Of a stretch of DNA of 34,524 bases, positions 4,618 through 18,722 are shown piece by piece (position 1 is the stretch's first letter; each line of letters begins with the position of its first letter). A model generated the notes under the pieces. It had not been told where the DNA came from and did not search any database. It saw only the letters and a program-made list of their open reading frames with translations. The stretch comes from Ilumatobacter sp. Lineage in GTDB: Bacteria; Actinomycetota; Acidimicrobiia; Acidimicrobiales; Ilumatobacteraceae. Position numbers and translations under genes: made by a program. Where the stretch lies: the NCBI RefSeq assembly GCF_030065885.1, contig NZ_JASJCS010000059.1:1-34524 (forward strand), written 5' to 3'.

Positions 4618-5529
4618 ATGGAGCATCAGTTCGACCTCCGCCATCTCGCCGCCCTCACCGCGCTCGCCGACGAGCTGCACTTCGGCCGGGCTGCGACTCG
4701 TCTCCATCTCGCTCAGTCGGCACTGAGCCGCACGATCCAGCAGCTCGAGCGCTCGCTCGACTGCCAGCTCGTTGACCGCACGACACGATCGGTCTCGCTG
4801 ACGCCCGCCGGTGCCGAGCTCGCCATGCGCGCTCGCGAGTTGCTCGCCGCGACCGACCAGGCTGCCCGACGCACCCTCGACGTGGCAGCGGGGCGGGCAG
4901 GTCGGCTCCGGGTCGGCTTCACCGGCCCTGCCCTGTCCGGCCCGCTACCGGGGCTCCTGCGCCGGTTCCAGGCGGACCAGCCGTCGTGGCGGCTCGATCT
5001 CGTGGAGCTCCCGTCGACCGAGCAGATCGAGCGCCTCGTCGACGGCGAGCTCGACGTCGGGTTCTTCCTCGCCGGCCCCCGGATCCCACGTGAGCTGGAC
5101 CACGTCGAGGTGACGTCGGAGCGCTCGTGCGTCGGGGTTGCGATCGACCACCCGCTCGGCGGCCGCAGCGAACTCGCCCTCCGGGAGCTGGCGGGCGAGA
5201 GGCTGATCCTCTTCCCCCGCGACCGGAATCCGGGTCTCTACGACGAGATCGTCGACCTCGTGACCGATGGCCACACGCGGCGGGTCGAGATCCAGCATGC
5301 GTCGAGTCGCCTGATCGCGGCGAGCCTCGTGGCAGCCGGGCTCGGCGTCTCGACGTTCACCGAGTCGATGACGACGGTCTGCGGGCCGGACGTGGTGCTG
5401 ATCCCGCAGGTCCGTCCCGAGCGCACGACGACACTCGTGATGGGTTGGGACGGGCGGCGGCGGAACCCCTTGCTCGATGCGATCGAGATCGGAAGGTCCC
5501 CGGCGCTCAGTCCGTCTGCAACTGCGTGA
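4618..5529 (+). CDS. LysR-type transcriptional regulator
   Basis: A 303-residue LysR-family regulator. The N-terminal winged helix-turn-helix covers about residues 4-62 (FDLRHLAALTALADELHFG, then AATRLHLAQSALSRTIQQLE), followed by the linker helix. A substrate-binding co-inducer domain starts near residue 90 (GRLRVGFTGPALSG). ATG 4618 matches the normal LysR start a few residues before the helix-turn-helix; the frame stays open upstream, but that part is antisense to the SDR. It is likely to regulate the divergent SDR gene and itself through the dyad at 4593-4613. The last 23 bp overlap the 3' end of the convergent hydrolase/OsmC gene. The co-inducer is unknown. Confidence 0.92.
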   Translation: MEHQFDLRHLAALTALADELHFGRAATRLHLAQSALSRTIQQLERSLDCQLVDRTTRSVSLTPAGAELAMRARELLAATDQAARRTLDVAAGRAGRLRVGFTGPALSGPLPGLLRRFQADQPSWRLDLVELPSTEQIERLVDGELDVGFFLAGPRIPRELDHVEVTSERSCVGVAIDHPLGGRSELALRELAGERLILFPRDRNPGLYDEIVDLVTDGHTRRVEIQHASSRLIAASLVAAGLGVSTFTESMTTVCGPDVVLIPQVRPERTTTLVMGWDGRRRNPLLDAIEIGRSPALSPSATA

Positions 5530-6736
5530 CGATGTCCGACGACTGCTCGAGCGTACGGTGCACGGGGCAGCGGTCGGCGATTCGCAGCAGGCTCTGGCGC
5601 TGCTCGTCGTCGAGGTCGCCCTCGACGACCAGGACGCGGGTGAAGCGATCGATGCGCGGCCCGGCTGCCTCGGCCGCCCGATCGGCATCGTCGGGATGCA
5701 CCTTGTCGTGCGACACCTCGACGGTGACGCGGTCGAGCGGCATCTGCTTGCGCTCGGCGTACATGCGCAGCGTCATCGACGTGCAGGCCCCGAGCGCCGT
5801 CGCGAGGAAGTCGTAGGGTCCCGGTCCCGCGTCGAACCCGCCGATCGACTCGGGCTCGTCGGCCAGGAATCGATGCCGGCCCGACACCACGTGGTTGAGG
5901 AAGGGCCCCTGCGTCGTCTCGGCCACCACCACCTGCGCGGTCGGCTTCGGCACCTCCGCGGCGCCGCTCTCGTCGACCAGATACCTCGCCGCCCACGTGC
6001 CGATCATCGACGCGGTGTACTCGGCATCCGACGTCCGGGTCAGCAGGTGGTCGGCATCATCGAGCGTGACGAAGCTCTTGGGATGGCGAGCGGCCTGGAA
6101 GATCTCGGCCGCGTGGCCGACCCCCACCGTGTTGTCGATCGGCGAGTGCAGGACGAGCAGCGCCCCCTTGAACGCTGCCGCTGCGTCGGTCACGCCGCCC
6201 GCCCGCAGGTCGTCGATGAACTGCCGCGTGATCGTGAACCGGCGGCCGTGCAGCTCGACTTCGGCTGCACCGGCGCGCTCGATGCGTTCGAGGCAGCCGT
6301 CGAACAGCTGCGCGACATGGCCGGCGTCCGATGGCGCCCCGATGGTGGCGATCGCCCGCACCTCGGGCAGCTCGGCGGTGGCGGCGATGACCGCGGCGCC
6401 GCCCAGGGAGTGGCCGACGAGGAGCTGCGGCGCAGCATGGTGCTCGCGGAGCCACGCCGCCGCCGCGAGCAGGTCGTCGACGTTCGACGAAAAGTTCGTG
6501 TTCGCGAACTCGCCGTCGCTGGCGCCGAGCCCGGTGAAGTCGAACCGCAGGAGCCCGTAGCCGAGATCGGTGAGCACGGCCGCCAGCCGAGACGCGGCAC
6601 GGAGGTCCTTGCTGCACGTGAAGCAGTGGGCGAAGAGAGCGAACGCACGTGGCGGGCCGGCGGGCAGGTCGAGCCGCGCCGAGAGCTCGTCGCCGGCGCT
6701 GCCGGGGAAGGTCACACGCTGGATCCGGGTGGGCAT
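5507..6736 (-). CDS. Bifunctional alpha/beta-hydrolase and OsmC-family protein
   Basis: A 409-residue fusion. Residues 1-255 are an alpha/beta hydrolase with the nucleophile elbow GHSLGG (Ser110), a likely acid at Asp201 (SPIDNTV) and His230 (DADHLL). Residues 265-409 are an OsmC/Ohr-type domain with Cys318 in GACTSMTLRMYA and Cys390 in DRCPVH, the pair used to reduce organic hydroperoxides. This fusion architecture is known in bacteria. It may link ester or lipid hydroperoxide handling, but that is inference. ATG 6736 begins MPTRIQRVTFPGSAG, which fits the hydrolase fold; the longer open frame is low-complexity. It is transcribed as a single gene and is convergent with LysR. Confidence 0.9.
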   Translation of the reverse strand: MPTRIQRVTFPGSAGDELSARLDLPAGPPRAFALFAHCFTCSKDLRAASRLAAVLTDLGYGLLRFDFTGLGASDGEFANTNFSSNVDDLLAAAAWLREHHAAPQLLVGHSLGGAAVIAATAELPEVRAIATIGAPSDAGHVAQLFDGCLERIERAGAAEVELHGRRFTITRQFIDDLRAGGVTDAAAAFKGALLVLHSPIDNTVGVGHAAEIFQAARHPKSFVTLDDADHLLTRTSDAEYTASMIGTWAARYLVDESGAAEVPKPTAQVVVAETTQGPFLNHVVSGRHRFLADEPESIGGFDAGPGPYDFLATALGACTSMTLRMYAERKQMPLDRVTVEVSHDKVHPDDADRAAEAAGPRIDRFTRVLVVEGDLDDEQRQSLLRIADRCPVHRTLEQSSDIVTQLQTD

Positions 6737-7098
6737 GGGCGGAACGTACCAGGGCGACACGAGCCGCCGCGCTGGTGCGAGACTGGTGGTTCGTCGTCGC
6801 CTCCGAGAGCCCCCACCGCTCGTTCGAACGGTCGAGCCCTCGGCAGGCTGCGCTCCCATCACTGCCGCAGTTGGCGGCGAGGTCGTCCCGGCACCCATCT
6901 TCACCGGCCTCCACGGCGGCGGCGAGGGCAACGACGGGGTGGGGGCATCCCGGTGGCCACCGTTGCGCTGGTGGCGATCGTGCGGGCCGAGTCGCCGTGG
7001 TCCGACAACTCAGACGACCTCTGGCGACGCGAGGGGTCGTGCCACGGCGCCCGGGCCAGGGAAGTGGACGCCGCCTCACCCCCTCCGGGGCCCGCGAC
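6737..7098. other. Intergenic region with no gene seen
   Basis: These 362 bp lie between the start of the hydrolase/OsmC gene and the end of the Mrp operon, both on the minus strand. All open frames crossing it look like shadows. Two small structures are visible: a 12-bp palindrome CGGTGGCCACCG at 6951-6962, and an imperfect hairpin at 7022-7044 (TGGC and ACG pairing with CGT and GCCA, one bulged G). The hairpin could act as a weak terminator for the Mrp operon. The promoter of the hydrolase gene should be here, but no clear -10/-35 pair was recognised. Confidence 0.5.
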
Positions 7099-8829
7099 CT
7101 ACAGGACCGCGATGATCCCGATCACGCCGATCAGCACCACACCGGCGAGAACGAACACGAGCGCCACGGCGAGCGGCGGGCGGGCATCGTCGGCGTCGTA
7201 GGCGACCCCCGGCCGCTCGGGGCCGGCACTGCCGAGGAACCGCTGTAGACCCGGCGCCGGATTGCGCAGCAGTCGGGCCGCGCCGCTCGCGGCGCCGTCG
7301 CTCCAGCGCTCGAGGGTGGCGAATCCGGCAGCTCCTGCCGCGGCGAGTCGGCGAGCGGCATGGGCGGGCCGGCGGTAGAACCAGTCGGTGTCGAGCGCGA
7401 GCTTCGACTCGCCGGCCAGCTTGGCCCGCAGGATCCAGAAGGCCACGAACGTGAGCGCGCCGAGCTGGATCGTCTCCACGAGATGCGCCCCGTTGTAGGG
7501 GTGGTAGTCCACCGGGAACGGCAGGTAGCGATAGAGCAGGCCCGGAGCGACGCCGAAGAGGACGCACAGGGCGGCGACGACGCCCATGCCGGCGTACATG
7601 TTCCGCGGCGTGGGGCGGGGCCGGATGCCGCGGTCGTCGCCGAACCACGTCCAGTACGGCAGCTTGAGCCCGGTGTGGAGGAAGGTGCCGATCGAGGCGA
7701 GCAGCAGGAGCAGCATCACGGTCTCGTGGTGGGCCTCGCCGGCGGCCTCGATGACCATCGACTTGGAGATGAACCCGTTGAAGAGCGGGAACCCGGAGAT
7801 CGAGAAGGCGCCGATCATGTAGAGCCAGAACACGGCGCGCTGGCGCCCGTAGAACCCGCCGAGCTCGGTGAGCGCGCTGCGACCGGTGGTGTGGAGCACT
7901 GCGCCGGCCCCCATGAACAACAGGCCCTTGTAGAGGATGTGGCTGAAGGCGTGGGCGGTGGCCCCGTTCACCGCCAACTCGGTGCCGATGCCGGCCCCCG
8001 CCACCATGTAGCCGACCTGGCTGATGATGTGGTACCCGAGGATCTCCCGGATGTCGTTGGCGAGCACGGCGTAGACGACGCCGTAGAGCGCCATGACCAC
8101 GCCGGCGTAGATGAGCACGTCCCACCCGACGAACATGCGCAGGAGCACGTAGACGCTCGACTTCGTGGTGAAGGCGCTGAGGAACACGGCTCCGGTGACG
8201 GTGGCCTTCGGGTAGGCGTCGGGCAGCCAGGCGTGCAACGGCGGGATCGCAGCGTTGACCGCCACACCGATGAGCATCACCCAGGCGCCGGCCGATGACG
8301 TGTCCAGGGCGGTCACCGCGAGGCTCCCGGTCTCGCCGACGTACATCAGCATCCCGGCCATGAGGAACGACCCACCGGTGAGGTGGACGAGCAGGTAGCG
8401 GGTTCCTGCCCGCCGGGTTCCCTCGGTGCGCCGCGCCCAGATCAGGTAGGTGCTGAAGACGGCCATGATCTCGGTGAAGATGAGCAGGCTGAACAGGTCG
8501 CCCGAGAACGCGATCCCGATCGCGCTGCCGCCGTAGACGAGGGCCGCGACCTGCTGGCCGGTGTCGTCGATGTGCCAGGCGTAGAGGCCGCCGGCTGCCG
8601 CGGCGATGGCGAAGATCGCACCGAACACCCTGCTGAGGCTGTCGACGGCCAGCGGCTCGAACTCGTTCCCGAGGGTCTCGAACGACAGGGTCGACCCCTC
8701 CGCGAGCAGCCAGAGGTACACGAGGGTGACGACCGGGACCACCACGGCGGCGGCGCTGCGCCATCGCCGCGGCAGCAGCTGGAGGAGCAGGGCACCGGCG
8801 TACATCACGAAGGCCGGAGGGGCGCTCAT
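7099..8829 (-). CDS. Third MrpD/NuoL-like antiporter subunit, TM7 Lys replaced by Asn
   Basis: A 576-residue polytopic protein of the proton-conducting transporter family (NuoL/M/N, MrpA/D). The conserved TM5 glutamate is Glu120 (SLLIFTEIMAV). The family position in VAVNAAIPPLHAWLPDAY is Asn192, where the other two paralogues here have Lys. Lys223 follows in SAFTTKSSVYVL, and HILYKGLLFMGAG carries a later channel Lys. The C-terminus (about 480-576) is a long amphipathic, Arg/Ala-rich stretch ending in one membrane helix, longer than in standard MrpD. It is the last gene of the operon and overlaps the preceding small gene by 4 nt. It probably forms part of the antiporter membrane arm. Whether it pumps is uncertain because of the Asn. 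Confidence 0.88.
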   Translation of the reverse strand: MSAPPAFVMYAGALLLQLLPRRWRSAAAVVVPVVTLVYLWLLAEGSTLSFETLGNEFEPLAVDSLSRVFGAIFAIAAAAGGLYAWHIDDTGQQVAALVYGGSAIGIAFSGDLFSLLIFTEIMAVFSTYLIWARRTEGTRRAGTRYLLVHLTGGSFLMAGMLMYVGETGSLAVTALDTSSAGAWVMLIGVAVNAAIPPLHAWLPDAYPKATVTGAVFLSAFTTKSSVYVLLRMFVGWDVLIYAGVVMALYGVVYAVLANDIREILGYHIISQVGYMVAGAGIGTELAVNGATAHAFSHILYKGLLFMGAGAVLHTTGRSALTELGGFYGRQRAVFWLYMIGAFSISGFPLFNGFISKSMVIEAAGEAHHETVMLLLLLASIGTFLHTGLKLPYWTWFGDDRGIRPRPTPRNMYAGMGVVAALCVLFGVAPGLLYRYLPFPVDYHPYNGAHLVETIQLGALTFVAFWILRAKLAGESKLALDTDWFYRRPAHAARRLAAAGAAGFATLERWSDGAASGAARLLRNPAPGLQRFLGSAGPERPGVAYDADDARPPLAVALVFVLAGVVLIGVIGIIAVL

Positions 8830-9128
8830 CGGTCTGCTCCGCCGTCGCGAGCGGTGTCACCGGCGAGGCCGGGATCGGCGACGCCGGTGCGGACGTCGTG
8901 CGGGTCGGCGTCGCCGTGCACCTCGTAGTAGTCCTCGGTGCGCTGCACCCCGAACTTCCCGTACCACTTGGAGAGGAAGATGATCGCCACACACCCGATG
9001 AACCCGTAGACGACGAAGAACCCGGGGATGTCGGTGAACCAGTAGTGGTGCTCGTGGTGCACGAGCTGCTCGGCCACGAGCGACCCGGCGACGAGGGCGG
9101 CGAGGAGGGCCCACTGCCAGCGCTTCAT
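8826..9128 (-). CDS. Small two-helix membrane protein of the Mrp operon
   Basis: A 100-residue protein of unknown function. It has a hydrophobic helix at about 5-21, a His-rich loop (HHEHHYW, 24-30), then IPGFFVVYGFIGCVAIIFLSK (about 34-54) as a second helix. A basic, tyrosine-containing stretch (YGKFGVQRTEDYYEV) and an acidic tail follow. ATG 9128 overlaps the preceding stop by 4 nt, and its own stop overlaps the next ATG by 4 nt, so it is almost certainly translated as part of the operon. It matches no canonical Mrp A-G subunit. I recall similar small proteins in related antiporter clusters but cannot verify that here. A role as an assembly or accessory subunit is inference. Confidence 0.75.
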   Translation of the reverse strand: MKRWQWALLAALVAGSLVAEQLVHHEHHYWFTDIPGFFVVYGFIGCVAIIFLSKWYGKFGVQRTEDYYEVHGDADPHDVRTGVADPGLAGDTARDGGADR

Positions 9129-10612
9129 CCCACACCTCCGAACACGGCATCGGCGGACATGCGGGCGAGGTCGTAGAAGCGCACGAGCGCGTTCGGGAAC
9201 ACCCCGAACACCAGCGAGGTCGCGGCGGTGACCATGAGCGGCACCCGCACGAGGGCCGGTGCCTCGCCCAGGCCGTGGTGCTGCGTGGAGGGCCGCAGGA
9301 AGGCGCGGTGCACGATCGGGAGCAGGTAGGCGGCGTTGAGCACGCCGCTCAGGAGCAGCACCACGAGGGCGAGCTCCTGGCCGCTGGCAGCGGCACCGGC
9401 ACCGATGAACCACTTGCTCTCGAAACCGTTGACCGGCGGCAGCCCGGCGAGGCCGATGCTCGCGAGGGCGAACGCGCCCATCGTCCATGGCATCTCCCGG
9501 CCGATGCCGTCGAGCTCGCTCACCCGGTCGCGGTGGGCGTGGACGTAGATGGCGCCGGCCACGAAGAACAGCGTGATCTTCATGGTCGCGTGTGTCGTGA
9601 TGTGGAGGATCCCGCCGACGAAGGCGTCGGGATGGACCAATGCCGCGGCGAGCACGATGTACGAGAGGTGACCGATCGTCGAGTAGGCGAGGCGACGCTT
9701 GAGGTTGTCCTGGGCGAGGGCGGCGAGTGATCCGAGCACGATGGTCGCGCCGGCGACGATGGCGAGCGGGAGCGCGAGGCCGTGGTCCTCCATCACCGTC
9801 GGGCCGAACACGAACCCGGTCACTCGGAGCACGCCGAACACACCCGACTTGACCACGGCGACGGCGTGGAGCAGGGCGCTCACCGGCGTGGGCGCCACCA
9901 TGGCGGCAGGGAGCCAGGCGTGGAGTGGCACGATCGCCGCCTTCACGGCGACGCCGCCGACGAGGAGGGCGAAGAGGCCCCGCACCGTGCCGGACCCGGC
10001 GTCGACGCCGCCGAACACCCCGCCGGCGGTGAAGTCGAGGGTGCCGGCGGTCCGCGACAGCCAGACGGCCCCGGCGAGCAGGGCCACCCCGGCCGTGAGG
10101 GTGTAGGCGAGGTACTTGCGGCCCGCCCTGATCGCCTCGGGCGTCTCCTTGTGGATCACGAGCGGGTACGTGGCGATCGTGAGGATCTCGTAGAAGACGA
10201 TGAAGGTGATGAGGTTGGCGCTGAACGCCACGCCGATCGTCGACGAGAGGCACAAGGCGAACGCAGCGAAGTAGCGGGTCTGGTTGCGCTCCTCGGCGGC
10301 ACGCACGTAGCCGATCGAGTAGAACGACGTGAGCACCCACAGCGTCGAGGCGACCAGGGCGAAGACCATACCGAGCGGGTCGACGCGCAGTGCGAGGTCG
10401 AACCCCGGCACGAGCTCGCCGATCCGGGTCTCCGGGATCCGCCCGTCGAGGACGCGGGGCAGCAGCGAGATCACGAGGCCGAACTTCACGAGCGCGGCCC
10501 CGATGGTCCACGACTCCCGGAGACGCGGCGACCGAGACGACACGAGCACGAGGGGAACGGCGGCGAGCGACACGAGCACGGCCAGGAGGGGGACGGCGCT
10601 GTCGTAGGTCAT
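9125..10612 (-). CDS. MrpA/NuoL-like proton-translocating antiporter subunit
   Basis: A 495-residue membrane protein with about 14 helices. Family residues are present: Glu142 in FIVFYEILTIATY, Lys224 in GGVAVKAAIVPLHAWLP, and Lys255. The stretch APTPVSALLHA at 240-250 is the NuoL/MrpA signature, so this is the best candidate for the N-terminal half of MrpA. The MrpA C-terminal parts are encoded separately upstream (the MbhD- and MbhE-like genes). The later HATMKITLFFVAG holds another channel Lys. It should sit in the cytoplasmic membrane and carry H+ (or Na+) in the antiporter complex. It starts 4 bp after the preceding gene and overlaps the small downstream gene by 4 nt. Confidence 0.88.
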   Translation of the reverse strand: MTYDSAVPLLAVLVSLAAVPLVLVSSRSPRLRESWTIGAALVKFGLVISLLPRVLDGRIPETRIGELVPGFDLALRVDPLGMVFALVASTLWVLTSFYSIGYVRAAEERNQTRYFAAFALCLSSTIGVAFSANLITFIVFYEILTIATYPLVIHKETPEAIRAGRKYLAYTLTAGVALLAGAVWLSRTAGTLDFTAGGVFGGVDAGSGTVRGLFALLVGGVAVKAAIVPLHAWLPAAMVAPTPVSALLHAVAVVKSGVFGVLRVTGFVFGPTVMEDHGLALPLAIVAGATIVLGSLAALAQDNLKRRLAYSTIGHLSYIVLAAALVHPDAFVGGILHITTHATMKITLFFVAGAIYVHAHRDRVSELDGIGREMPWTMGAFALASIGLAGLPPVNGFESKWFIGAGAAASGQELALVVLLLSGVLNAAYLLPIVHRAFLRPSTQHHGLGEAPALVRVPLMVTAATSLVFGVFPNALVRFYDLARMSADAVFGGVG

Positions 10613-10616
10613 GCCA

Positions 10617-12098
10617 TCACCACCCCGCCGGCGGGATGCGGTCGAGCACGCCGTTCACGAGCACGGCGTTGAAGACACCGAGCACGAGGATGCCCGCGGC
10701 GAGCACGAGCGCCGGGACGAGCATGGCCGGACGCGCCTCGTGACGGACCACGGCATCGACGGGCTCGTCATCGTCGCGCCGCAGGTACGCCCGCTCGAGC
10801 ACCCGGAAGAAGTACACGGCGTTGAGCAGGCTCGACGCCATGATCACGAGCACCATGATCCACAGTCCCCGGTCCACCGCACCCGAGGCGAGGTACCACT
10901 TGCTGAAGAACCCGGCGGTCGGCGGGATCCCGATCATGGAGAGCGCCCCCACGGTGAACGCCGCCATCGTCCACGGCAGCCGCCGCGCCACGGCCGCGTC
11001 GATCCGGCCGATGTCCGAGTGGCCGAGCCGGGCCCGCATGATCCCGGCGACGAGGAAGAGGGCACCCTTCATGACGGCGTGGTTGACCACGTGGAGCACC
11101 GCCCCGATGAGGGCCACCGGGTTGGCGAGACCGACCCCGAGGCCGATGAAGCCCACCTGGGCGACGCTCGAGTAAGCGAGCATCCGCTTCAGCTCCCGCT
11201 GGGCGATGGCGAGGACCGAGCCGTAGATGATCCCGATCGCCGACAGCCACATCACCACGTCGGCGACGGGCAACTCGTCGGTGACGAGCGTGCCGCCGAA
11301 GACGAAGACGAGCAGTCGGATGAGTGCGTAGGCGCCGACCTTCGTACCGATGGGCGCCATGAGCGCCGTGGTGGCAGACGGCGCCTGTGTGTACGCATCG
11401 GGCAGCCAGCCGTGGAGCGGGAACAGCGCCATCTTCACCCCGACGCCCACGATCATCAGGCTCAGCCCGATGGCGAGCGCAGGATTGTCCCAGCTGCCGG
11501 GGAGGATCGCCGCCACGTCCCGCATGTTCAGCGACCCGGTCAGGTTGTAGACGAACCAGAGGCCGAGCAGATAGAGCGACGCGCCCGTGGCGCCGACGAG
11601 CAGGTAGCGGAACGATGCGAGCGGCGATGCCGGCTCCCCCACGGCGACGAGTGAGTAGCCCGCGAGGGCGGCGATCTCCATGAACACGAAGAGGTTGAAG
11701 AGATCGCCAGTCACGATGATGCCCTGGAACCCGGCGAGCATGAGGAGCGCGGTCACGAAGAATGGCACCTCCTTGCGGGGCAGCTCCTCCACGACCATCG
11801 AGCGGGCGCCCACCATCACGACGAGGGCGACCGACGCGATGACCGCGCTGAAGAAGGCACTCAGCGGGTCGAGCACGAACTCGATGCCGATCGGCGGCAG
11901 CCAACCGCCGAGCCGGTAGGTCATGGTCCCGCCGTCGACCACCTCGGCGAGCCCCCACAGCGCCACACCCGCGTCGGCTGCGACCGCGACGAGCGCCAAC
12001 CGGTACGCCCAGGTGTACCGGACGAGGCCGACGAGGGACGCCAGGAGCGTCGCGGTGAGGAGGATGAGCGGGATCAACACCGGCAGGTGCCGGGTCAT
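10617..12098 (-). CDS. mnhD: Mrp/Mnh antiporter subunit D
   Basis: A 493-residue member of the proton-conducting transporter family with about 14 membrane helices. Key residues include Glu141 in FNLFVFMEIAALAGYSL, Lys222 in VGVGVKMALFPLHGWLPDAY, Lys253 in APIGTKVGAY, and a later Lys in HAVMKGALFLVAG. APSATTALMAP replaces the NuoL-type TPVSALLHA, which is characteristic of the MrpD branch. It directly follows mnhC with a 4-nt overlap, the canonical C-D order. It forms an ion-translocating channel in the Mrp membrane complex and uses the proton gradient to expel Na+. Start ATG 12098 fits the family N-terminus. Confidence 0.93.
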   Translation of the reverse strand: MTRHLPVLIPLILLTATLLASLVGLVRYTWAYRLALVAVAADAGVALWGLAEVVDGGTMTYRLGGWLPPIGIEFVLDPLSAFFSAVIASVALVVMVGARSMVVEELPRKEVPFFVTALLMLAGFQGIIVTGDLFNLFVFMEIAALAGYSLVAVGEPASPLASFRYLLVGATGASLYLLGLWFVYNLTGSLNMRDVAAILPGSWDNPALAIGLSLMIVGVGVKMALFPLHGWLPDAYTQAPSATTALMAPIGTKVGAYALIRLLVFVFGGTLVTDELPVADVVMWLSAIGIIYGSVLAIAQRELKRMLAYSSVAQVGFIGLGVGLANPVALIGAVLHVVNHAVMKGALFLVAGIMRARLGHSDIGRIDAAVARRLPWTMAAFTVGALSMIGIPPTAGFFSKWYLASGAVDRGLWIMVLVIMASSLLNAVYFFRVLERAYLRRDDDEPVDAVVRHEARPAMLVPALVLAAGILVLGVFNAVLVNGVLDRIPPAGW

Positions 12099-12496
12099 CC
12101 GGGCTCACCCCGCATCTGCTCGAGCAGCTCGGCCTCGTCGAGGGTGCCGTAACGACGGTAGATGGAGATCAGGAGAGCGAACGCGACGCCGGTCGTCGCC
12201 ACCCCGACCACGATGGCGGTGAGCATGAGGGTGTGCGGCAGCGGGTTGAGGTACTCGGCCGGGTCGACGACCTGCTCGCCGTGCTCGCCGTGCTCTCCGT
12301 GCGTGTCGAGCACGGGGACGGTGGCGTCGGGCCGCGTCGCCGAAGCCACCCACGTGAGGATGATGGCGGCCTGCATGATGTTGAGGCCGATGAGCTTCTT
12401 GACGAGGTTGCGCTTGACGAGGATCGCGTAGAGCCCGATCACGAGCAGCAACGCGGTGGCGTAGTAGGCGTAGCCGCCGTCCCAGAACTCAGCCAT
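12095..12496 (-). CDS. mnhC: Mrp/Mnh antiporter subunit C (NuoK-like)
   Basis: A 133-residue NuoK-type subunit with three helices at about 10-26, 38-52 and 89-113. KKLIGLNIMQAAIILTWVA and LPHTLMLTAIVVGVATTGVA are the family's conserved helices. The loop between helices 2 and 3 is longer than I expect and carries HGEHGEHGE at 66-74. This is encoded by three copies of a 9-bp unit at 12273-12299 (two identical, one with a base change). It overlaps mnhB upstream and mnhD downstream by 8 and 4 nt. It is expected to bridge subunits of the membrane arm. Confidence 0.93.
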   Translation of the reverse strand: MAEFWDGGYAYYATALLLVIGLYAILVKRNLVKKLIGLNIMQAAIILTWVASATRPDATVPVLDTHGEHGEHGEQVVDPAEYLNPLPHTLMLTAIVVGVATTGVAFALLISIYRRYGTLDEAELLEQMRGEPG

Positions 12497-13010
12497 CGCC
12501 GGACTCCGCGTCCGACTCGGCGCCCTCCACCTGGTCGGCCTCGGCGACCTCGGTGGCCTCGTCGAGGCCCGCGAGCGGCCCCCGCGGCTCGCCGACGAGA
12601 TCGTCGTAGATCGAGATGAGGGTGGCCGTCACTGCGATCGCCACACCGAGCTCGATCGCGAGGATCCCGGCGTTGCGTAGCTCGGGATCGGGCAGGCCGA
12701 ACGGCAGGCCCGCGTGGTCGAGGAAGTTGAACCCGAGGAACATCACGATGAGCCCCGTTCCCAGGAAGACGAGGATGCCGATGGAGCTCACCGGCATCCC
12801 CCAGCTCCGCTGGAACTGGGACTGGGCCGCCGCAGTGCCGATGCTGAGCCGGATGAGGAGGAACGAGGCCGCGAGCATCGCCCCACCCTGGAATCCGCCG
12901 CCGGGGCTGTAGTGACCGTGGAACACCACGTAGAGGGCGAACAGCTGGATGAAGGGGGTCACCAACCGGGCCGAGAGGGCGACGATCCGGTCGTCGTAGT
13001 ACTCCCTCAT
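12489..13010 (-). CDS. mnhB: Mrp/Mnh antiporter subunit B
   Basis: A 173-residue MnhB-family protein. The signature HGHYSPGGGFQGGAMLAASF is at 31-50, preceded by the helix LVTPFIQLFALYVVF. Four helices are visible in the first about 130 residues. A long acidic tail from about 140 (EATEVAEADQVEGAESDAES) is not typical of the short canonical MnhB end. The ATG at 13010 forms an ATGA overlap with the preceding stop. In-frame upstream codons would add MCPHPAQEQA, but that part overlaps the preceding gene. Confidence 0.94.
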   Translation of the reverse strand: MREYYDDRIVALSARLVTPFIQLFALYVVFHGHYSPGGGFQGGAMLAASFLLIRLSIGTAAAQSQFQRSWGMPVSSIGILVFLGTGLIVMFLGFNFLDHAGLPFGLPDPELRNAGILAIELGVAIAVTATLISIYDDLVGEPRGPLAGLDEATEVAEADQVEGAESDAESGDG

Positions 13011-13303
13011 TGCTTGCTCCTGCGCAGGATGAGGGCACACGCCATGCCGGCGGTGAAGACGACGACGGTCTCGCCGAGGGTGTCGAATCCGCGATAGTCG
13101 GCCAGCGTGACCGTGACCATGTTCGGGGTCTCGGCGTCGATGTAGGCGTTCTCGATGTAGTAAGCGGCGGCGTTCGGGCTGCCGACGGCGCTCTCGGCGG
13201 CGTTCGGAGGCGACTCGGGGGCGCCGCGCTCGGGCAGGTGCCCGATGCCGTAGAGCAGGAGCCCGGCGAAGGCGAGGAGCACGACGAGGGTCAGGTGCCG
13301 CAT
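13007..13303 (-). CDS. MbhE-like subunit (C-terminal domain of MrpA as a separate protein)
   Basis: A 98-residue protein with a helix at about 5-20, a periplasmic loop, and the motif NMVTVTLADYRGFDTLGE at 61-78 followed by a second helix. This VT-x-VD(Y)-RGFDTLGE motif is the hallmark of the last domain of full-length MrpA and of MbhE in membrane-bound hydrogenases. Here it is a stand-alone gene, as in the ancestral split organisation. Its ATG overlaps the stop of the MbhD-like gene by one base (TGATG) and its stop overlaps the mnhB ATG by 4 nt. It should form part of the interface between the A-like and B subunits. Confidence 0.88.
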   Translation of the reverse strand: MRHLTLVVLLAFAGLLLYGIGHLPERGAPESPPNAAESAVGSPNAAAYYIENAYIDAETPNMVTVTLADYRGFDTLGETVVVFTAGMACALILRRSKQ

Positions 13304-13548
13304 CAGTCCGCGCTGTCTCGTTCGGTGTGATGGACGGCGACCACGAAGAGCACGCCCGTGATGCCGGCGGCCACCACGGCTTCGGTGAAGCCGACGTCCA
13401 CGGCCCCCATGACCACCTCGACGAGCGCAGTGAGGAACGAGAACACGGTGAGCGTGACCACCGCCGTGAGGAGGTCGCGGGCCTCGATCGCGACGATGGC
13501 GGCGACGATGAGGAACACGAACAACACGATCTCGAGGGGGACGCTCAC
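13303..13548 (-). CDS. MbhD-like (DUF4040) subunit, NuoJ-like part of MrpA
   Basis: An 81-residue protein made of three membrane helices, with LLTAVVTLTVFSFLTALVEV and DVGFTEAVVAAGITGVLFVVA at about 26-45 and 51-71. The D-(V/A)-(A/G)-FTEA motif is the signature of the MbhD/DUF4040 domain found inside full-length MrpA. GTG 13548 is the start because a GGAGGA ribosome site lies just upstream and the GTGA overlaps the mnhG stop by 4 nt. With the MbhE-like gene and the NuoL-like gene it makes up the parts of a split MrpA. Confidence 0.88.
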   Translation of the reverse strand: MSVPLEIVLFVFLIVAAIVAIEARDLLTAVVTLTVFSFLTALVEVVMGAVDVGFTEAVVAAGITGVLFVVAVHHTERDSAD

Positions 13549-13928
13549 CGCCCGTCCTCCTCGGGCTCGGCCACAGCGCCGCCGTCCGCGCCGTCGTGAT
13601 GGTGATCCTCGGTGGGGTCCTCGGGCATCGGCTGGCCCTTGAACCACGGACGGAGTCCGCTGAAGTGGGCGGAGCGGACGAGGGCGTGGGTGCCCACCGG
13701 GTTCGTGAGCGCAACGAACACCACCACGGCGATCAGTTTCACGTCGGTGAGGGACAGGCCTCCGTGGACGGCGATGCCGAGGATGGCGAGCACGAGACCG
13801 AGGGTGTCGCTCTTGCCGACCGCATGGGTGCGGGTGTAGAAGTCGGGCAGGCGGACCACCCCGATGCTGCCGACGAGGAGGAAGAAGGCGCCGGCGATCG
13901 CGAGGATCAGGGCGAAGACGTCGAACAC
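13545..13928 (-). CDS. mnhG: Mrp/Mnh antiporter subunit G
   Basis: A 127-residue MnhG-family protein with three helices at about 4-24, 42-56 and 62-78. The conserved GVVRLPDFYTRTHAVGKSDT lies at 23-42. The C-terminal about 30 residues are acidic and His-rich (EDHHHDGADGG), beyond the usual family end, and are presumably cytoplasmic. It lies 2 bp after mnhF and overlaps the GTG of the MbhD-like gene by 4 nt. Subunits E, F and G form one end of the Mrp membrane arm. Confidence 0.93.
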   Translation of the reverse strand: MFDVFALILAIAGAFFLLVGSIGVVRLPDFYTRTHAVGKSDTLGLVLAILGIAVHGGLSLTDVKLIAVVVFVALTNPVGTHALVRSAHFSGLRPWFKGQPMPEDPTEDHHHDGADGGAVAEPEEDGR

Positions 13929-13930
13929 GT

Positions 13931-14221
13931 CTACGGCGACTCCACCGGCAGGTGCCCGTCGGGCTTGGGCACCATGAAGTACTTGGCGATCGCCAGGTTC
14001 CCGATGAAGTTGAGGATCGCGTAGCCCACGGCGATGTCGACGAACATGTCGAGCCGCTCGAACATGACACCGACGAGGCAGATGAGCACCACCGTCTTCG
14101 TGGCGATGGTTCCGGCCCCCAGCAGCCGGTCGAACAACGTGGGCCCCACGATCACGCGGTACGCCGGGATCACGATGATGACGGCCAGGCCGACGGTGAC
14201 GACGACGAAGGCTTGCTCCAC
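13931..14221 (-). CDS. mnhF: Mrp/Mnh antiporter subunit F
   Basis: A 96-residue, three-helix MnhF-family protein. The signature RVIVGPTLFDRLLGAG lies at 22-37 between helices 1 and 2, followed by KTVVLICLVGVMFE and the helix DIAVGYAILNFIGNLAIAKY. Length and layout are canonical. It starts 2 bp after the mnhE stop and ends 2 bp before mnhG, so it is in a continuous operon. An in-frame upstream start is not available because of the tight spacing. Confidence 0.93.
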   Translation of the reverse strand: MEQAFVVVTVGLAVIIVIPAYRVIVGPTLFDRLLGAGTIATKTVVLICLVGVMFERLDMFVDIAVGYAILNFIGNLAIAKYFMVPKPDGHLPVESP

Positions 14222-14223
14222 TG

Positions 14224-14817
14224 TTACTCCTCCACCCAGCGGTGGATGCTCACGTCCGTGACCGCACCGCTCTCGTCGCCCTCGAAGAGGCGGACCACAC
14301 GCGCCGGCATGACGCCCTCGACGAGGTTCTCGCTCGAGGGGTCCGTGATGGCGTGGACGAGGAAGACGCCGTGCGCTACGTCGATCGTCACGGTCCCAGG
14401 TGTGAGCGTGATCGAGTTGGCGAGGACGGTTTGCGCCGCGGCGTTGGGCAGCTCGGCATGGAACTCGACGAGGGACGGATCCACGGGCATCCGCCGGGTC
14501 AGCACGATGCGGGCCACCTGGAGCGCGGCAATGAGGATCTCCTTCATCAGCCAGGGCAGGTAGCCGGCCAGCGCCAGCAGCCGGAGCGGGCGATGCACGT
14601 CACCCGGGTAGAGACGCACCTTGAACAGGCTGCGATTGAGCGTCAGGACGAACGCCACGCTGAGGACGCCGGCGGAGATGTGGAAGACGTCGTAATGGCC
14701 GCTGAAGAGCAGCCACAAGCCGAGGAGCAGCAGGCCCAAGATGATCTGCGACCGCCACCCGTGGCGCCGCTCCGGCATCTCCACGCCTCGTTCCGGGATG
14801 TTCCAGGACTGGGGCAT
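14224..14817 (-). CDS. mnhE: Mrp/Mnh antiporter subunit E
   Basis: A 197-residue MnhE-family protein and the first gene of the antiporter operon. Two or three N-terminal helices (about 24-40, 46-61 and 81-105) precede a soluble domain with the conserved LANSITLTPGTVTID (132-146) followed by VFLVHAI. The start is ambiguous. ATG 14817 has GAGGAG about 12 bp upstream. A second in-frame ATG at 14778 (MPERRHGW) has a GTGGAG directly before it and gives a length closer to canonical MnhE. The promoter should lie between 14818 and about 14950, where a long imperfect hairpin is present. Confidence 0.92.
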   Translation of the reverse strand: MPQSWNIPERGVEMPERRHGWRSQIILGLLLLGLWLLFSGHYDVFHISAGVLSVAFVLTLNRSLFKVRLYPGDVHRPLRLLALAGYLPWLMKEILIAALQVARIVLTRRMPVDPSLVEFHAELPNAAAQTVLANSITLTPGTVTIDVAHGVFLVHAITDPSSENLVEGVMPARVVRLFEGDESGAVTDVSIHRWVEE

Positions 14818-14953: not shown

Positions 14954-15254
14954 ACCAGGTTCGCTCGACCGTGTCGGTCGTCAAGTGGCTCGAGCATCGG
15001 CTCCACAGGTACTCGGCGTTCATCGTGGTCCCGATCTTCGCGCTCGCGAACGCCGGCGTCCGAGTACCGGCCGACGAGGTCGGCAGTGCGCTCTCGAGCG
15101 AGGTGACGTGGGGTGTGTTCCTCGGCCTCGTGGTCGGCAAGCGGGGGGCATCTCGCTGTTCACGATGGACGAGCACATCAGCATCGACGACGAGGCCTCG
15201 GCGCTCGCCTCGGCGCTCGACGGGGCCGACGCGGCCGCCGCGCCGGCCCGCTGA
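14953..15254 (+). pseudogene. nhaA: Remnant of nhaA-type Na+/H+ antiporter gene, truncated and frameshifted
   Basis: The plus-strand reading from 14953 gives VSVVKWLEHRLHRYSAF, VVPIFALANAGVRV and WGVFLGLVVGK. These are hallmarks of a late section of NhaA: the amphipathic LEH helix, the FALANAGV helix and the GLVVGK motif. The usual continuation, GISLFT, is present but in another frame. The shift falls in a six-G run at 15143-15148 and equals one missing base. After GISLFT the frame reads an acidic/Ala-rich tail to a stop at 15254, with none of the last two NhaA helices. The N-terminal two-thirds are also absent. It is therefore a gene relic rather than a working antiporter. A single-base sequencing error would repair the frameshift but not the truncations. 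Confidence 0.75.
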
Positions 15255-15368: not shown

Positions 15369-17186
15369 ATGCTCCTCGCCGCTTCCGAAACCACGCTCGG
15401 GCCGACGCTGGCCATCATCGTCGGCGTCGGCATGGCCGCACAGTGGATCGCGTGGCGCACGCAGATCCCGTCGATCATCCTGCTGCTCCTCGCCGGTCTC
15501 GTGCTCGGCCCGGTCGCCGGCGTCGTCGATCCCGACGAGTTCCTCGGCGGCACGCTGTTCCCGATCGTCTCGCTGTCGGTCGCGCTGATCCTGTTCGAGG
15601 GCGGCCTCGATCTCCCACCACGCGAGCTGCGAGCGACCGGCACCGTCGTCCGGCGGCTGATCACGCTCGGTGCGATCATCACGTTCTTCGTCGGGGTGTG
15701 GGGAGCCGAGCAGCTGTTCGACATCAGCCGCGGCGCCGCAGCGGTGATGGCCGCGGTGCTCGTCGTCACCGGGCCGACCGTGGTCGGGCCGCTGCTGCGG
15801 TTCGTGCGGCCGAGCGGCCGCACCGGGCCGATGCTGCGCGCCGAGGGCATCCTGATCGACCCGATCGGCGCCACGGCCGCGCTGGTGGCGTTCGAGGCGG
15901 CGCTCACCAACGAGCTCGGTGAGGCGTTGATCGAGGTCCTGGGCGTGATCGGGCTGACGCTCGTCGCCGGTTTCGGGATCGGGTTCGTGTCGGCCTGGGT
16001 GCTCGATCACGCGATGCGGCGGTTCCTGATCCCCGACTACCTCGGCAATCCGATGGCGGTGGCGGCCGTCGTCGTGGCGTTCGTGCTGAGCAACTGGGTG
16101 CAGGAGGAGGCGGGCCTGCTGACCGTCACCGTGATGGGCATCTGGCTGGCGCGCCGCGACTCGGCCGCCGTCCGCCAGCTGCTGGAGTTCAACGAGAGCC
16201 TCCGCACGCTGCTGATCTCGGCGCTGTTCATCCTGCTCGCCGCCCGCATCGAGACCGACCAGCTGCAGGACGTCGCGCTCCCCGCGCTCGCGTTCCTCGC
16301 CCTCCTGGTGTTCGTCGCCCGCCCGCTCAGCGTCATCGTCTCGACGATCCGCACCTCGCTGACCTGGCGGGAGCGGCTGTTCCTGATGGTGATGGCGCCG
16401 CGCGGCATCGTCGCCGCCGCGGTCTCGGCGATCTTCGCGCTGCGACTCGAGGAGGAGGGCGTGCGCGGCGCCGAGCTGATCGTGCCGGTCGTCTTCCTCG
16501 TCATCATCGGCACGATCCTCGTGTACGGCTTCCTCGCCGGGCCGACCGCCCGCCGCCTCGGCCTCGCCGACCAGCGCGCCAACGGCGTGCTCATCGTGGG
16601 CGCCCATTCCGCCGCACGCGGGTTCGCCAAGGCGCTCGACGACCTGGGCGTCCGGGCGCTGCTCGTCGACACCGACCCGTACAACGTGACCCGCTCGGTG
16701 GCGCTCGGCCTACCTGCCCGCCGGGTGAGCGTCCTCACGGAGGAGGCCACGCACGAGCTCGACCTGCGTGGCATCGGGCGGATCCTGGCGCTGACGTCGA
16801 ACGACGAGGTCAACGCACTCGCATCCAGCCGGTTCGCCCGTGTGTTCGGCCGCCGCGAGACATTCCAGCTCGCACCGTCCGAGAAGCGCCGCCGCGGCGC
16901 GCTCCCCGAAGAGCTGCTCGGGCGGATCATCGGTATCGACGGGCTCGAGTACGGCACGATCGACGAGCGCGTCCGCCAGGGGTGGCGGGTCCGCTCGGCG
17001 CCGGCCGGCGAGTCGATCGCGGCGTCCACCGAGGGGGGCCTCTTCTTCCCGATGGCGCGGGTGTTCGACGGCCAGCTCAGCTTCATCTGCCGGAACGACC
17101 CGGTCCCGACGCAGGGCGCGGTCGTCGGGCTGGCCGCACCGTCGGTCCAGCAGGAGCTCGACGCCGACGTCGCGACTGCGAAGTGA
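15369..17186 (+). CDS. CPA1-family Na+/H+ antiporter with C-terminal TrkA-N-like domain
   Basis: A 605-residue cation/proton antiporter. Residues 10-390 hold 12-13 helices. TGPTVVGPLLR (134-144) replaces the usual TDP of shorter NhaP proteins. RAEGILIDPIGA (157-168) gives the acidic transport residues Glu159 and Asp164. MAPRGIVAAAVSA (342-354) carries the conserved Arg345. From about 404 a Rossmann-like domain begins (NGVLIVGAHSAARGFAKAL), resembling TrkA-N/RCK domains that bind nucleotide and gate transport. The tail (about 490-600) is unassigned. The ATG at 15369 lacks a strong ribosome site. Its stop overlaps the next GTG by 4 nt, so the two genes are coupled. The ion (Na+ or K+) cannot be settled from sequence. 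Confidence 0.9.
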   Translation: MLLAASETTLGPTLAIIVGVGMAAQWIAWRTQIPSIILLLLAGLVLGPVAGVVDPDEFLGGTLFPIVSLSVALILFEGGLDLPPRELRATGTVVRRLITLGAIITFFVGVWGAEQLFDISRGAAAVMAAVLVVTGPTVVGPLLRFVRPSGRTGPMLRAEGILIDPIGATAALVAFEAALTNELGEALIEVLGVIGLTLVAGFGIGFVSAWVLDHAMRRFLIPDYLGNPMAVAAVVVAFVLSNWVQEEAGLLTVTVMGIWLARRDSAAVRQLLEFNESLRTLLISALFILLAARIETDQLQDVALPALAFLALLVFVARPLSVIVSTIRTSLTWRERLFLMVMAPRGIVAAAVSAIFALRLEEEGVRGAELIVPVVFLVIIGTILVYGFLAGPTARRLGLADQRANGVLIVGAHSAARGFAKALDDLGVRALLVDTDPYNVTRSVALGLPARRVSVLTEEATHELDLRGIGRILALTSNDEVNALASSRFARVFGRRETFQLAPSEKRRRGALPEELLGRIIGIDGLEYGTIDERVRQGWRVRSAPAGESIAASTEGGLFFPMARVFDGQLSFICRNDPVPTQGAVVGLAAPSVQQELDADVATAK

Positions 17187-17729: not shown

Positions 17730-18722
17730 TCAGAAGAACTCCACCGCAACCGCGTGGACCGCCGCGACGTGGGCGCCGACGAGCGCCTCGTCGAGTGACT
17801 CGCCGAGCTCGACGGTGAAGCCGATGCCGTCGGTCGGAGCGACGGTGCGCGACCACTGTGACGCCGTGCCGGTGTAGGTGCCACCGCTCACCTCGACGAG
17901 CGGGAGGCCGGAGATCTCTGCGTAGCGGGCTCGGACCTGGCCGTCGCGGCCCGACGCCGGGTTGATGCGGAACAGGTCCTGGTGGTACCAGAGGATCAGG
18001 TCCGGCCGAACGAGGTCGCCGAGTGCCACGATCGCCTGCGTCTCGGGTTCGCTCGCCGGTCCGGCGCCCCCGTACTGCCAGTCGCCGGGCACCCCGAGCT
18101 CGCCCCAGTTGTGCGGGAAGTTGCGGTTGAGGTCGACGGCGTTGGCGTTCTGGCGGATCTGGCGGGCCTGCCCGTCGGGGTTCATCGAGCGCACGAGCCA
18201 CAGCTCGACGCCGTCGGGGACCGGGTCGACGGCGAGCCGGTCGATGATGGCCGCGCCGGCGTCCTCGTTGCCGTGGATCACGCCGACCGCCAGCACGCGG
18301 GTGCCCCCGGGGGTGCCGCGGCGGATCACCGTGATCGGCCGCCCCTCGACCGATCGCCCGATCTCCACCTCGGCGTCGAGCGCATACGCCTCGGTGCCCG
18401 CCGGCAGCGTGGTCGACGTCGTCGTGGTCGTCGTGGTCGTAGATGTCGTAGATGTCGTTGTGGTGCTCGTCGTCGACGTGGTCGTGGTGGTGGTGGTCGT
18501 ACTGGTGCTGCCGATCGTGCTCGTGGTGGGGGTCGTGGTGGTCGTCGTGGGCGTGGTGCCGGCGGGGCTCGTCGTCGTCGCAGAGGGCGACGGTCTCGAC
18601 GTCGGCGGTGTCGGGACGCCCGACGAGACCGGGTCGGCGGCCTGCGCAGCGCACGCAGCCACCAGGCCGGCGGCGAGCAGCCCGACGGCTCCTCTCGTCG
18701 AGCGGGCAGCCCGGACGCTCAT
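17730..18722 (-). CDS. M14-family zinc carboxypeptidase, predicted lipoprotein with Thr-rich stalk
   Basis: A 330-residue exported metallopeptidase. The signal peptide ends in LVAAC with lipobox Cys24. Residues about 38-106 are an almost pure Thr/Ser stalk. The catalytic domain follows: zinc ligands His150 and Glu153 in GVIHGNEDAG, substrate-binding Asn199-Arg200 in DLNRNFPHNW, third zinc ligand His247 in WYHQD, and catalytic Glu305 in FTVELGES. These are the complete M14 set; the DLNRNFP and short-domain pattern resembles the murein-peptide amidase (MpaA-like) branch. It probably trims peptides or peptidoglycan fragments outside the membrane. ATG 18722 overlaps the M20 peptidase stop by 4 nt, so the two peptidases share an operon. 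Confidence 0.88.
   Translation of the reverse strand: MSVRAARSTRGAVGLLAAGLVAACAAQAADPVSSGVPTPPTSRPSPSATTTSPAGTTPTTTTTTPTTSTIGSTSTTTTTTTTSTTSTTTTSTTSTTTTTTTTSTTLPAGTEAYALDAEVEIGRSVEGRPITVIRRGTPGGTRVLAVGVIHGNEDAGAAIIDRLAVDPVPDGVELWLVRSMNPDGQARQIRQNANAVDLNRNFPHNWGELGVPGDWQYGGAGPASEPETQAIVALGDLVRPDLILWYHQDLFRINPASGRDGQVRARYAEISGLPLVEVSGGTYTGTASQWSRTVAPTDGIGFTVELGESLDEALVGAHVAAVHAVAVEFF

Follow-up and report, generated by a model that had tools for sequence, protein, structure and literature searches.

Relation to described antiporters

Group 3 Mrp antiporters have been described as systems without a full-length mrpA in which mrpD is sometimes multiple (PMC8415708) and, under an alternative definition, as those with an irregular gene order (PMC5703873). 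The mrpEFGBB'CD operon of Pyrococcus furiosus has no mrpA and is arranged as E-F-G-(MbhD/E)-B-C-D (PMC8415708), and in a cluster of Nitrospira alkalitolerans two NuoM/L-like genes follow mrpD, with a small protein unmentioned in the part of the paper that was used (PMC7784846). In the rhizobial "green complex I" (PMC9040806), two MrpD-like subunits replace NuoL. Here, an eleven-gene cluster with likenesses to all of these systems was studied in Ilumatobacter sp. The window, that is, the whole stretch of DNA that was analysed, is an entire contig (C33, NZ_JASJCS010000059.1; 34,524 bases) of a draft genome of 5.04 Mb with a completeness of 90.68% and a contamination of 5.06%.

Eleven intact frames were found on the minus strand from 14817 down to 7099 in the order E-F-G-MbhD-MbhE-B-C-D1-D2-SM-D3, in which D1, D2 and D3 denote antiporter-like subunits and SM denotes a small protein. 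Adjacent frames either overlapped or were spaced by 2-4 bases. The Pfam families MNHE, MrpF_PhaF, PhaG_MnhG_YufB, MbhD, MbhE, MnhB and Oxidored_q2 were matched, as were three Proton_antipo_M proteins, each past the cut-off. The frames and the Pfam matches thus bore out an earlier reading of the sequence alone (the sequence-only reading), which had claimed this order on a single strand with nearly all genes overlapping. Its proposal of an enlarged Mrp also held, considering that full-length MrpA is missing, the gene order is MBH-like (MBH, membrane-bound hydrogenase), the antiporter-like subunits number three and the accessory protein is conserved. According to our preferred reading, to which a probability of roughly 0.57 was assigned, the cluster would encode a Group 3 Mrp-type cation/proton antiporter with an MBH-like core, to which an extra channel (D2) and, joined to it by SM, a modified end subunit (D3) are added.

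The genes B, C, E, F and G are present together with MbhD/MbhE-type subunits; mrpD-like genes are multiple, and the NuoL-, MbhD- and MbhE-like parts that form a single MrpA in canonical Group 1/2 Mrp are encoded by separate genes. By this gene content, the cluster is a Group 3 Mrp, and cation/proton antiport activity is predicted from its genes. MbhA-H form the ion-translocating part of MBH of Pyrococcus, and their letters presumably follow the gene order. The first eight genes are counterparts of MbhA-H in matching order, as judged against the subunit table of PMC8415708, and this order is that of the membrane module of both MBH and MBS, the sulfane-reductase complex. Among the 25 window proteins scanned, which are a subset of the frames, there was no hydrogenase or sulfane-reductase module as in MBH/MBS, no peripheral redox module MbhJ-N, no set of nuoA-K, M and N as in the green complex I operon, and no complex I or other respiratory-chain module. 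In the P. furiosus operon, there is a single D gene and an end module is lacking, whereas D2-SM-D3 is added here.

The same genome encodes a canonical Mrp on another contig (C188). Its subunits are homologous to those of the window, but it has two antiporter-like subunits, the motif GHGAN in MrpC, and one long frame that matches NuoL-, MbhE- and MrpB-like parts and, by these matches, is MrpA fused with MrpB. In addition, two complex I operons were found on other contigs, each with its own nuoL. The eleven-gene cluster is an additional system beside these three. The sequence-only reading had made its case depend on the cluster not being characterised already. The type is in part already described, as Group 3 Mrp (PMC8415708, PMC5703873) and in the Nitrospira cluster (PMC7784846), and both of its parts, the Group 3 Mrp and the subunit pair of green complex I, are of known kinds.

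Antiporter-like subunits and the small protein

The MrpD-like core subunit D1 (10617..12098, minus strand as for all cluster genes; 493 aa; PF00361, 3e-59) carries Glu in transmembrane helix (TM) 5 and Lys in TM7 and TM12. The extra antiporter-like subunit D2 (9125..10612; 495 aa; PF00361, 6e-58) has TM5 Glu and the TM7, TM8 and TM12 lysines. The top NCBIfam families of D1 and D2, PRK12662 and PRK07234, respectively, were matched under their cut-offs. D3 (7099..8829; 576 aa) matched NF009310/PRK12668 with 670 bits (cut-off 564) and has Asn192 at the site of the TM7 lysine.

Steiner and Sazanov reported that the TM7 and TM12 lysines of antiporter-like subunits are absolutely conserved and essential, that Lys/Glu pairs are coupling points, and that proton pathways run around the TM8 and TM12 lysines; in their coupling model of Mrp and complex I, TM7 Lys/TM5 Glu pairs couple neighbouring channels (PMC7419157). 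An exception to the TM7 rule is MbsH, which has Glu at this site (PMC7684303). To count these residues, sequences were aligned to NuoL of E. coli, with K229 as the TM7 lysine reference. Among 87 copies of D3 from the loci compared below, this site was occupied by Asn in 84, Ser in 2 and Asp in 1, and by Lys in none, whereas Lys was retained in all D2 (79/79) and D1 (51/51) copies counted, four D2 and two D1 below the length limit having been left out. The other key residues of D3 were kept: TM5 Glu in 87/87, TM8 Lys in 86/87 and TM12 Lys in 87/87. A second sample, anchored on SM and without overlap with the first, comprised 15 loci of the phylum sample and one of a genome of the same taxonomic order (G048). 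In this sample, TM7 Lys was again absent from D3 (0/16; 8 Ser, 5 Asn, 2 Gly, 1 Thr) and present in D2 (15/15).

Hence, of the residues of the coupling pairs (TM5 Glu and the TM7, TM8 and TM12 lysines), D3 lacks the TM7 lysine and keeps the other three. It differs in this from MbsH' of MBS, which has K217 in TM7 (PMC7684303). Because the TM8 and TM12 lysines are kept and the TM7 lysine is gone, D3 would have a route for protons with a changed switch. Searches of one open-licence library, none of them worded for this lysine, returned no mention of its absence. In nature, the D3 family is widespread, and none of the copies examined has the TM7 lysine; since the other key residues are kept, it offers a ready-made test of the coupling model.

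SM (8826..9128; 100 aa) lies between D2 and D3 and has two hydrophobic segments according to its hydropathy. An alignment of 56 members covered approximately 70 residues, with a consensus near W..IPGF.A.FGF.GC..II..SK.LG...L.K.EDYYD. The window protein had no significant match in Pfam or NCBIfam, and the 56 members gave weak, scattered matches, at most three sharing any Pfam family and at most eight any NCBIfam family. No chain of the PDB was found with the SM profile (best E 0.33). The profile detected SM in 83 of 87 loci, most of which had served to train it; in 15 profile-found loci of other actinobacteria, a single-seed search recovered SM in 14, D3 in 15 and D2 in 14. In rhizobial plasmid records, SM is labelled "hypothetical protein", and no name for it was found in one open-licence library by searches not worded for SM as such. 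SM is conserved and probably a subunit, and the family libraries that were searched contain no match to it.

The position of D3 was considered from its anatomy. The closest solved chain is 6u8y_X (618 aa, 1e-60), which the database labels subunit M and which, from its chain length, is taken to be MbsH' of MBS. The channel subunits of MBS are held in place by a lateral helix and TM16, both belonging to MbsH' (PMC7684303), and the corresponding part of D3 in the complex I version has been named HL (PMC9040806). D3, not D2, has a C-terminal tail with a last membrane segment; in the window D3, an amphipathic stretch of 44 residues with a significant helical moment (0/2000 shuffles) lies ahead of the last hydrophobic segment. 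D2 has no C-terminal extension and shows a weak match to the NuoL-type N-terminal Pfam domain. In one locus (L122, 9983-12280), D3 was read by eye as fused onward into an MbhD/MbhE-like part, a fusion that, from its sequence, recreates an MrpA-like protein. By this anatomy, D3 looks like an end subunit of the MrpA-N/NuoL type. The idea that the lateral helix grows with channel number was dropped, as tail lengths differed little between contexts: the median was 95 for the 52 tails read in Mrp and unclassified contexts, with an outlier of 285, and 104 for the 23 read in complex I contexts, 12 of the 87 copies being unread by the pattern.

Distribution of the cluster and links to complex I

A scan with the D3 alignment, taking one genome per species, yielded at least 578 encoded relatives with E values no higher than 1e-3, some of which are possibly not D3. 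The best 80 of these were joined by five plasmid loci and by a genome from the same taxonomic order to give a compared set of 86 loci, in which genes were labelled by phmmer queries with proteins of the window and with Nuo proteins of rhizobia; the 80 scan loci being the best-scoring ones, proportions among the 86 are no census. The comparison of gene neighbourhoods that the sequence-only reading had called for found the exact eleven-gene order in 25 of these 86 other loci, distributed over ten phyla: Chloroflexota (8), Acidobacteriota (3), Thermodesulfobacteriota (3), Bacteroidota, Balneolota, Verrucomicrobiota and Bacillota (2 each), and Spirochaetota, Eiseniibacteriota and the archaeal Methanobacteriota (1 each). 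A locus with this order (L061) belongs to a cultured species, Gracilimonas mengyeensis. Because the exact order recurs in this way, its origin by chance is excluded. MbhD and MbhE were merged in one frame in 4/86 loci, D2-SM-D3 stood in other or cut Mrp clusters in 13/86 and in a cut or other context in 12/86, and only SM-D3 was visible in 4/86, which were cut. In 6/86 loci, no SM was found by the single-seed search. As a separate observation, D3 was followed by another channel-type gene in three archaeal loci (L088, L104 and L121).

Among relatives, occurrence is sporadic. Within the genus, one genome of 10, the own one, had SM, as did 15 of 396 genomes of the phylum sample, the own one included; the cut-off of PRK12668 was exceeded in 2 of 296 genomes of the class. 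Two genomes of the same taxonomic order (G048 and G134) have the parts rearranged as D2-SM-D3-E-F-G-MbhE-B-C-D1; the small protein of G134 is very divergent, was spotted by eye and is missed by the SM profile. The sequence-only reading would have been given up if the third D-like subunit and the small protein were absent from close relatives. Such absence was indeed observed for SM (0/9 other genomes of the genus), but SM is present in other phyla, and the absence from the genus therefore looks like sporadic gain, not misreading. Horizontal gain is the simplest reading of the sporadic occurrence in the own group. The nearest copies to the window D3 were those of Myxococcota, Thermodesulfobacteriota and Balneolota, with identities of at most 62%. 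No viral carriage of the cluster was found in one scan.

In 22 of the 86 loci, the cassette D2-SM-D3 was located in a nuo operon between nuoK (or nuoJ) and nuoM, with no further channel gene or nuoL labelled before nuoM. This arrangement is that of the rhizobial green complex I (PMC9040806), and plasmids of S. meliloti, Ensifer and Rhizobium read nuoK-D2-small-D3-nuoM-nuoN. The rhizobial D2, SM and D3 are homologous to those of the window and are in identical order; in rhizobia, their cassette is flanked by nuoK and nuoM of a nuo operon (nuoA to nuoF/G seen), whereas here it lies on an Mrp core. The 23 complex I rows of the D3 trees fell inside a branch that also contained Mrp copies, with two context changes against a mean of approximately 20 for shuffled contexts. 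The same result was obtained in a tree with outgroups added, whose branches were very long, and three long D3 rows omitted. Two context changes were counted in the D2 tree as well, the outgroup not being on one side. These trees fit a move of the cassette from Mrp into complex I, although the root is insecure. No report of Group 3 Mrp and green complex I sharing D2-SM-D3 was found in one open-licence library. With this cassette in common, an antiporter and complex I provide a concrete instance of exchanged modules.

Complex I- or hydrogenase-type genes were nearby in 5 of the 25 same-order loci, and 4 of the 25 were in or beside nuo operons. In a Bacteroidota locus (L052, 55-13209), nuoJ-K-L-M, the eleven genes and nuoN follow one another on one strand; in a Balneolaceae locus (L062), the cluster is inverted between nuoK and nuoL, and in L075 it lies beside nuoL-M-N. 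In a Syntrophaceae locus (L060, 4185-21558), the cluster is directly upstream of nuoA-B-D-H-I-J-K-D2-SM-D3-M-N, which contains a second SM (1e-16). At the fifth locus (L054), B-, CD-, H- and N-like genes of complex I/hydrogenase type and a channel gene lie approximately 4 kb from the cluster. The flanks examined of the other 20 loci, several of them short, had no labelled set of nuo genes; one of these loci (L071) had a single weak NuoI-like match of 23 bits. The link to a respiratory module that the sequence-only reading had suggested was thus supported in relatives, by the green complex I cassette and by the four loci in or beside nuo operons, but not in this window. As a side observation, a green-type complex I operon without labelled nuoE-F-G follows the Mrp cluster in L060 and L168. 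It may be imagined, as a tentative reading that we regard as doubtful, that D2-SM-D3 is a portable pump-extension cassette on both the Mrp antiporter and complex I, in which D3 would pair the coupling Glu with Asn or Ser, and that the Mrp form, tied to complex I in several phyla, would be a respiration-linked sodium exchanger.

Proposed ion path, alternative explanations and surroundings

The core begins with MrpE (14224..14817; 197 aa; PF01899, 5e-30), MrpF (13931..14221; 96 aa; PF04066, 6e-13) and MrpG (13545..13928; 127 aa; PF03334, 6e-26). They are followed by two proteins that match parts of the MrpA C-terminus, an MbhD-like subunit with a GTG start (13303..13548; 81 aa; PF13244, 2e-16) and an MbhE-like subunit (13007..13303; 98 aa from ATG; PF20501, 9e-11), and then by MrpB (12489..13010; 173 aa; PF04039, 5e-27) and the MrpC/NuoK-like subunit (12095..12496; 133 aa; PF00420, 3e-21). 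The MbhE-like subunit contains DTLGE, which aligns with DTLGE of the own MrpA and which, judging from residue spacing, would contain the cation-exit Asp and Glu of PMC7419157. In MrpC, Gln was found one residue before the canonical His position in 45 of 48 loci.

The genes, their order and conservation, the residues and the D3 trees were observed, whereas we infer the subunit positions, the role of SM, and the ion, direction and stoichiometry of exchange as follows. The products of the first eight genes would provide the cation path along with a single proton channel, D1, and D2-SM-D3 would be added at the far end, at the site of MrpA-N or NuoL. D2, with all key residues, would be a second proton channel; SM would be an adaptor between D2 and D3, and D3 would be the end subunit, whose C-terminal lateral helix may tie the row of subunits together. 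For each cation expelled, two to three protons would enter under the proton motive force, and the exchange would be electrogenic. The published model assigns two protons to two channels; on this model, up to three per cation could pass through three channels, or two if D3 is non-conducting.

Several observations weigh against this assignment of a modified end subunit, an SM adaptor and a cation path of the usual kind. Given its missing TM7 lysine, D3 may be non-conducting for protons. The next solved chains, MbhH and MrpD, were close behind 6u8y_X for D3, and in comparison with the own canonical Mrp, D3 scored higher with MrpD (102 bits) than with MrpA (75 bits); therefore, the end position of D3 rests on its anatomy. 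Moreover, the C-terminal stretches of six other D3 had no significant helical moment (0.06-0.30). The sequence-only reading had named D2 L-like and D3 D-like, and these names agree with the weak NuoL-type domain of D2 and with D3 being nearer to the own MrpD, but the tail, 6u8y_X and the L122 fusion speak for the reverse. D2 may also be the split NuoL-like part of MrpA; for this part, anatomy favours D3, and sequence similarity is indecisive. Pairwise distances in 43 Mrp loci (r 0.63 for D2-D3, 0.78 for D1-D3 and 0.83 for D1-D2) did not support D2-D3 as a unit that moves separately inside Mrp loci. SM was not found by its profile in two haloarchaeal plasmids with an otherwise identical cluster, and it is therefore not needed everywhere; its fusion into haloarchaeal D2 was considered and rejected, as the extra residues are an internal loop and no SM was found. 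Finally, the MrpC of the window has no His where the own canonical MrpC reads GHGAN, the position being occupied by Ala.

It is possible, but in our view rather unlikely, that D3 is a structural cap and gate, with D1 and D2 as two working channels as in canonical Mrp and with D3 and SM stabilising the end. The absence of the TM7 lysine, described as essential in PMC7419157, from 87/87 and 16/16 D3 agrees with such a role, but the conserved TM5 Glu, TM8 Lys and TM12 Lys would be unneeded by a mere cap, the more so as the proton pathways of PMC7419157 run around the two last-named lysines. A complex that partners or extends complex I, either by trading Na+ against its pumped protons or by docking, so that respiration builds a sodium gradient, is unlikely. 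It would explain the four clusters in or beside nuo operons (L052, L062, L075 and L060), the genes near L054 and the replacement of nuoL by the cassette in 22/86 loci. However, adjacency is not contact, the loci counts come without a rate for other Mrp clusters, 20 of the 25 same-order flanks have no labelled nuo set, and the own complex I operons lie outside the window and retain nuoL.

A cation mainly other than Na+ (K+, Ca2+ or several) is more unlikely still: the Gln of MrpC before the canonical His position and the Ala in the window would suit such an ion, and one Mrp has been reported as a Ca2+/H+ exchanger (PMC5703873), but DTLGE of MbhE is retained. That the cluster is a decaying or misassembled, functionless fragment is very improbable. 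An NhaA remnant adjoins it, and the draft genome is incomplete and partly contaminated; against this, the eleven frames are intact, the G+C content of the cluster (0.69) is near that of the flanks (0.70-0.71), and the key residues are retained except for the TM7 lysine, which is lost throughout the D3 family.

Compared with these alternatives, the Group 3 Mrp-type antiporter extended by D2-SM-D3 remains our preferred reading, and the surroundings of the cluster were examined as well. The NhaA antiporter remnant (14971-15153, plus strand; frame residues 3-59 match positions 243-299 of 374; PF06965, 8e-16) sits between the Mrp cluster and a divergent gene (15369-17186, plus strand) for a Na+/H+ exchanger with a weak TrkA-N match. 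The Mrp cluster and this exchanger perhaps form an ion-homeostasis island. On the other side of the cluster, one frame (5507-6931, minus strand) contains a hydrolase domain and an OsmC-like domain. The second complex I operon of the genome (contig C2, L134, 7521-18726) was labelled nuoA-B-C-D-H-I-J-K-L-M-N, with no nuoE-F-G in the first 20 kb of the contig. Other window proteins include a short-chain dehydrogenase/reductase (SDR) and a monooxygenase-type protein, and a frame at 17730-19553 (minus strand) contains a long threonine-rich stretch.

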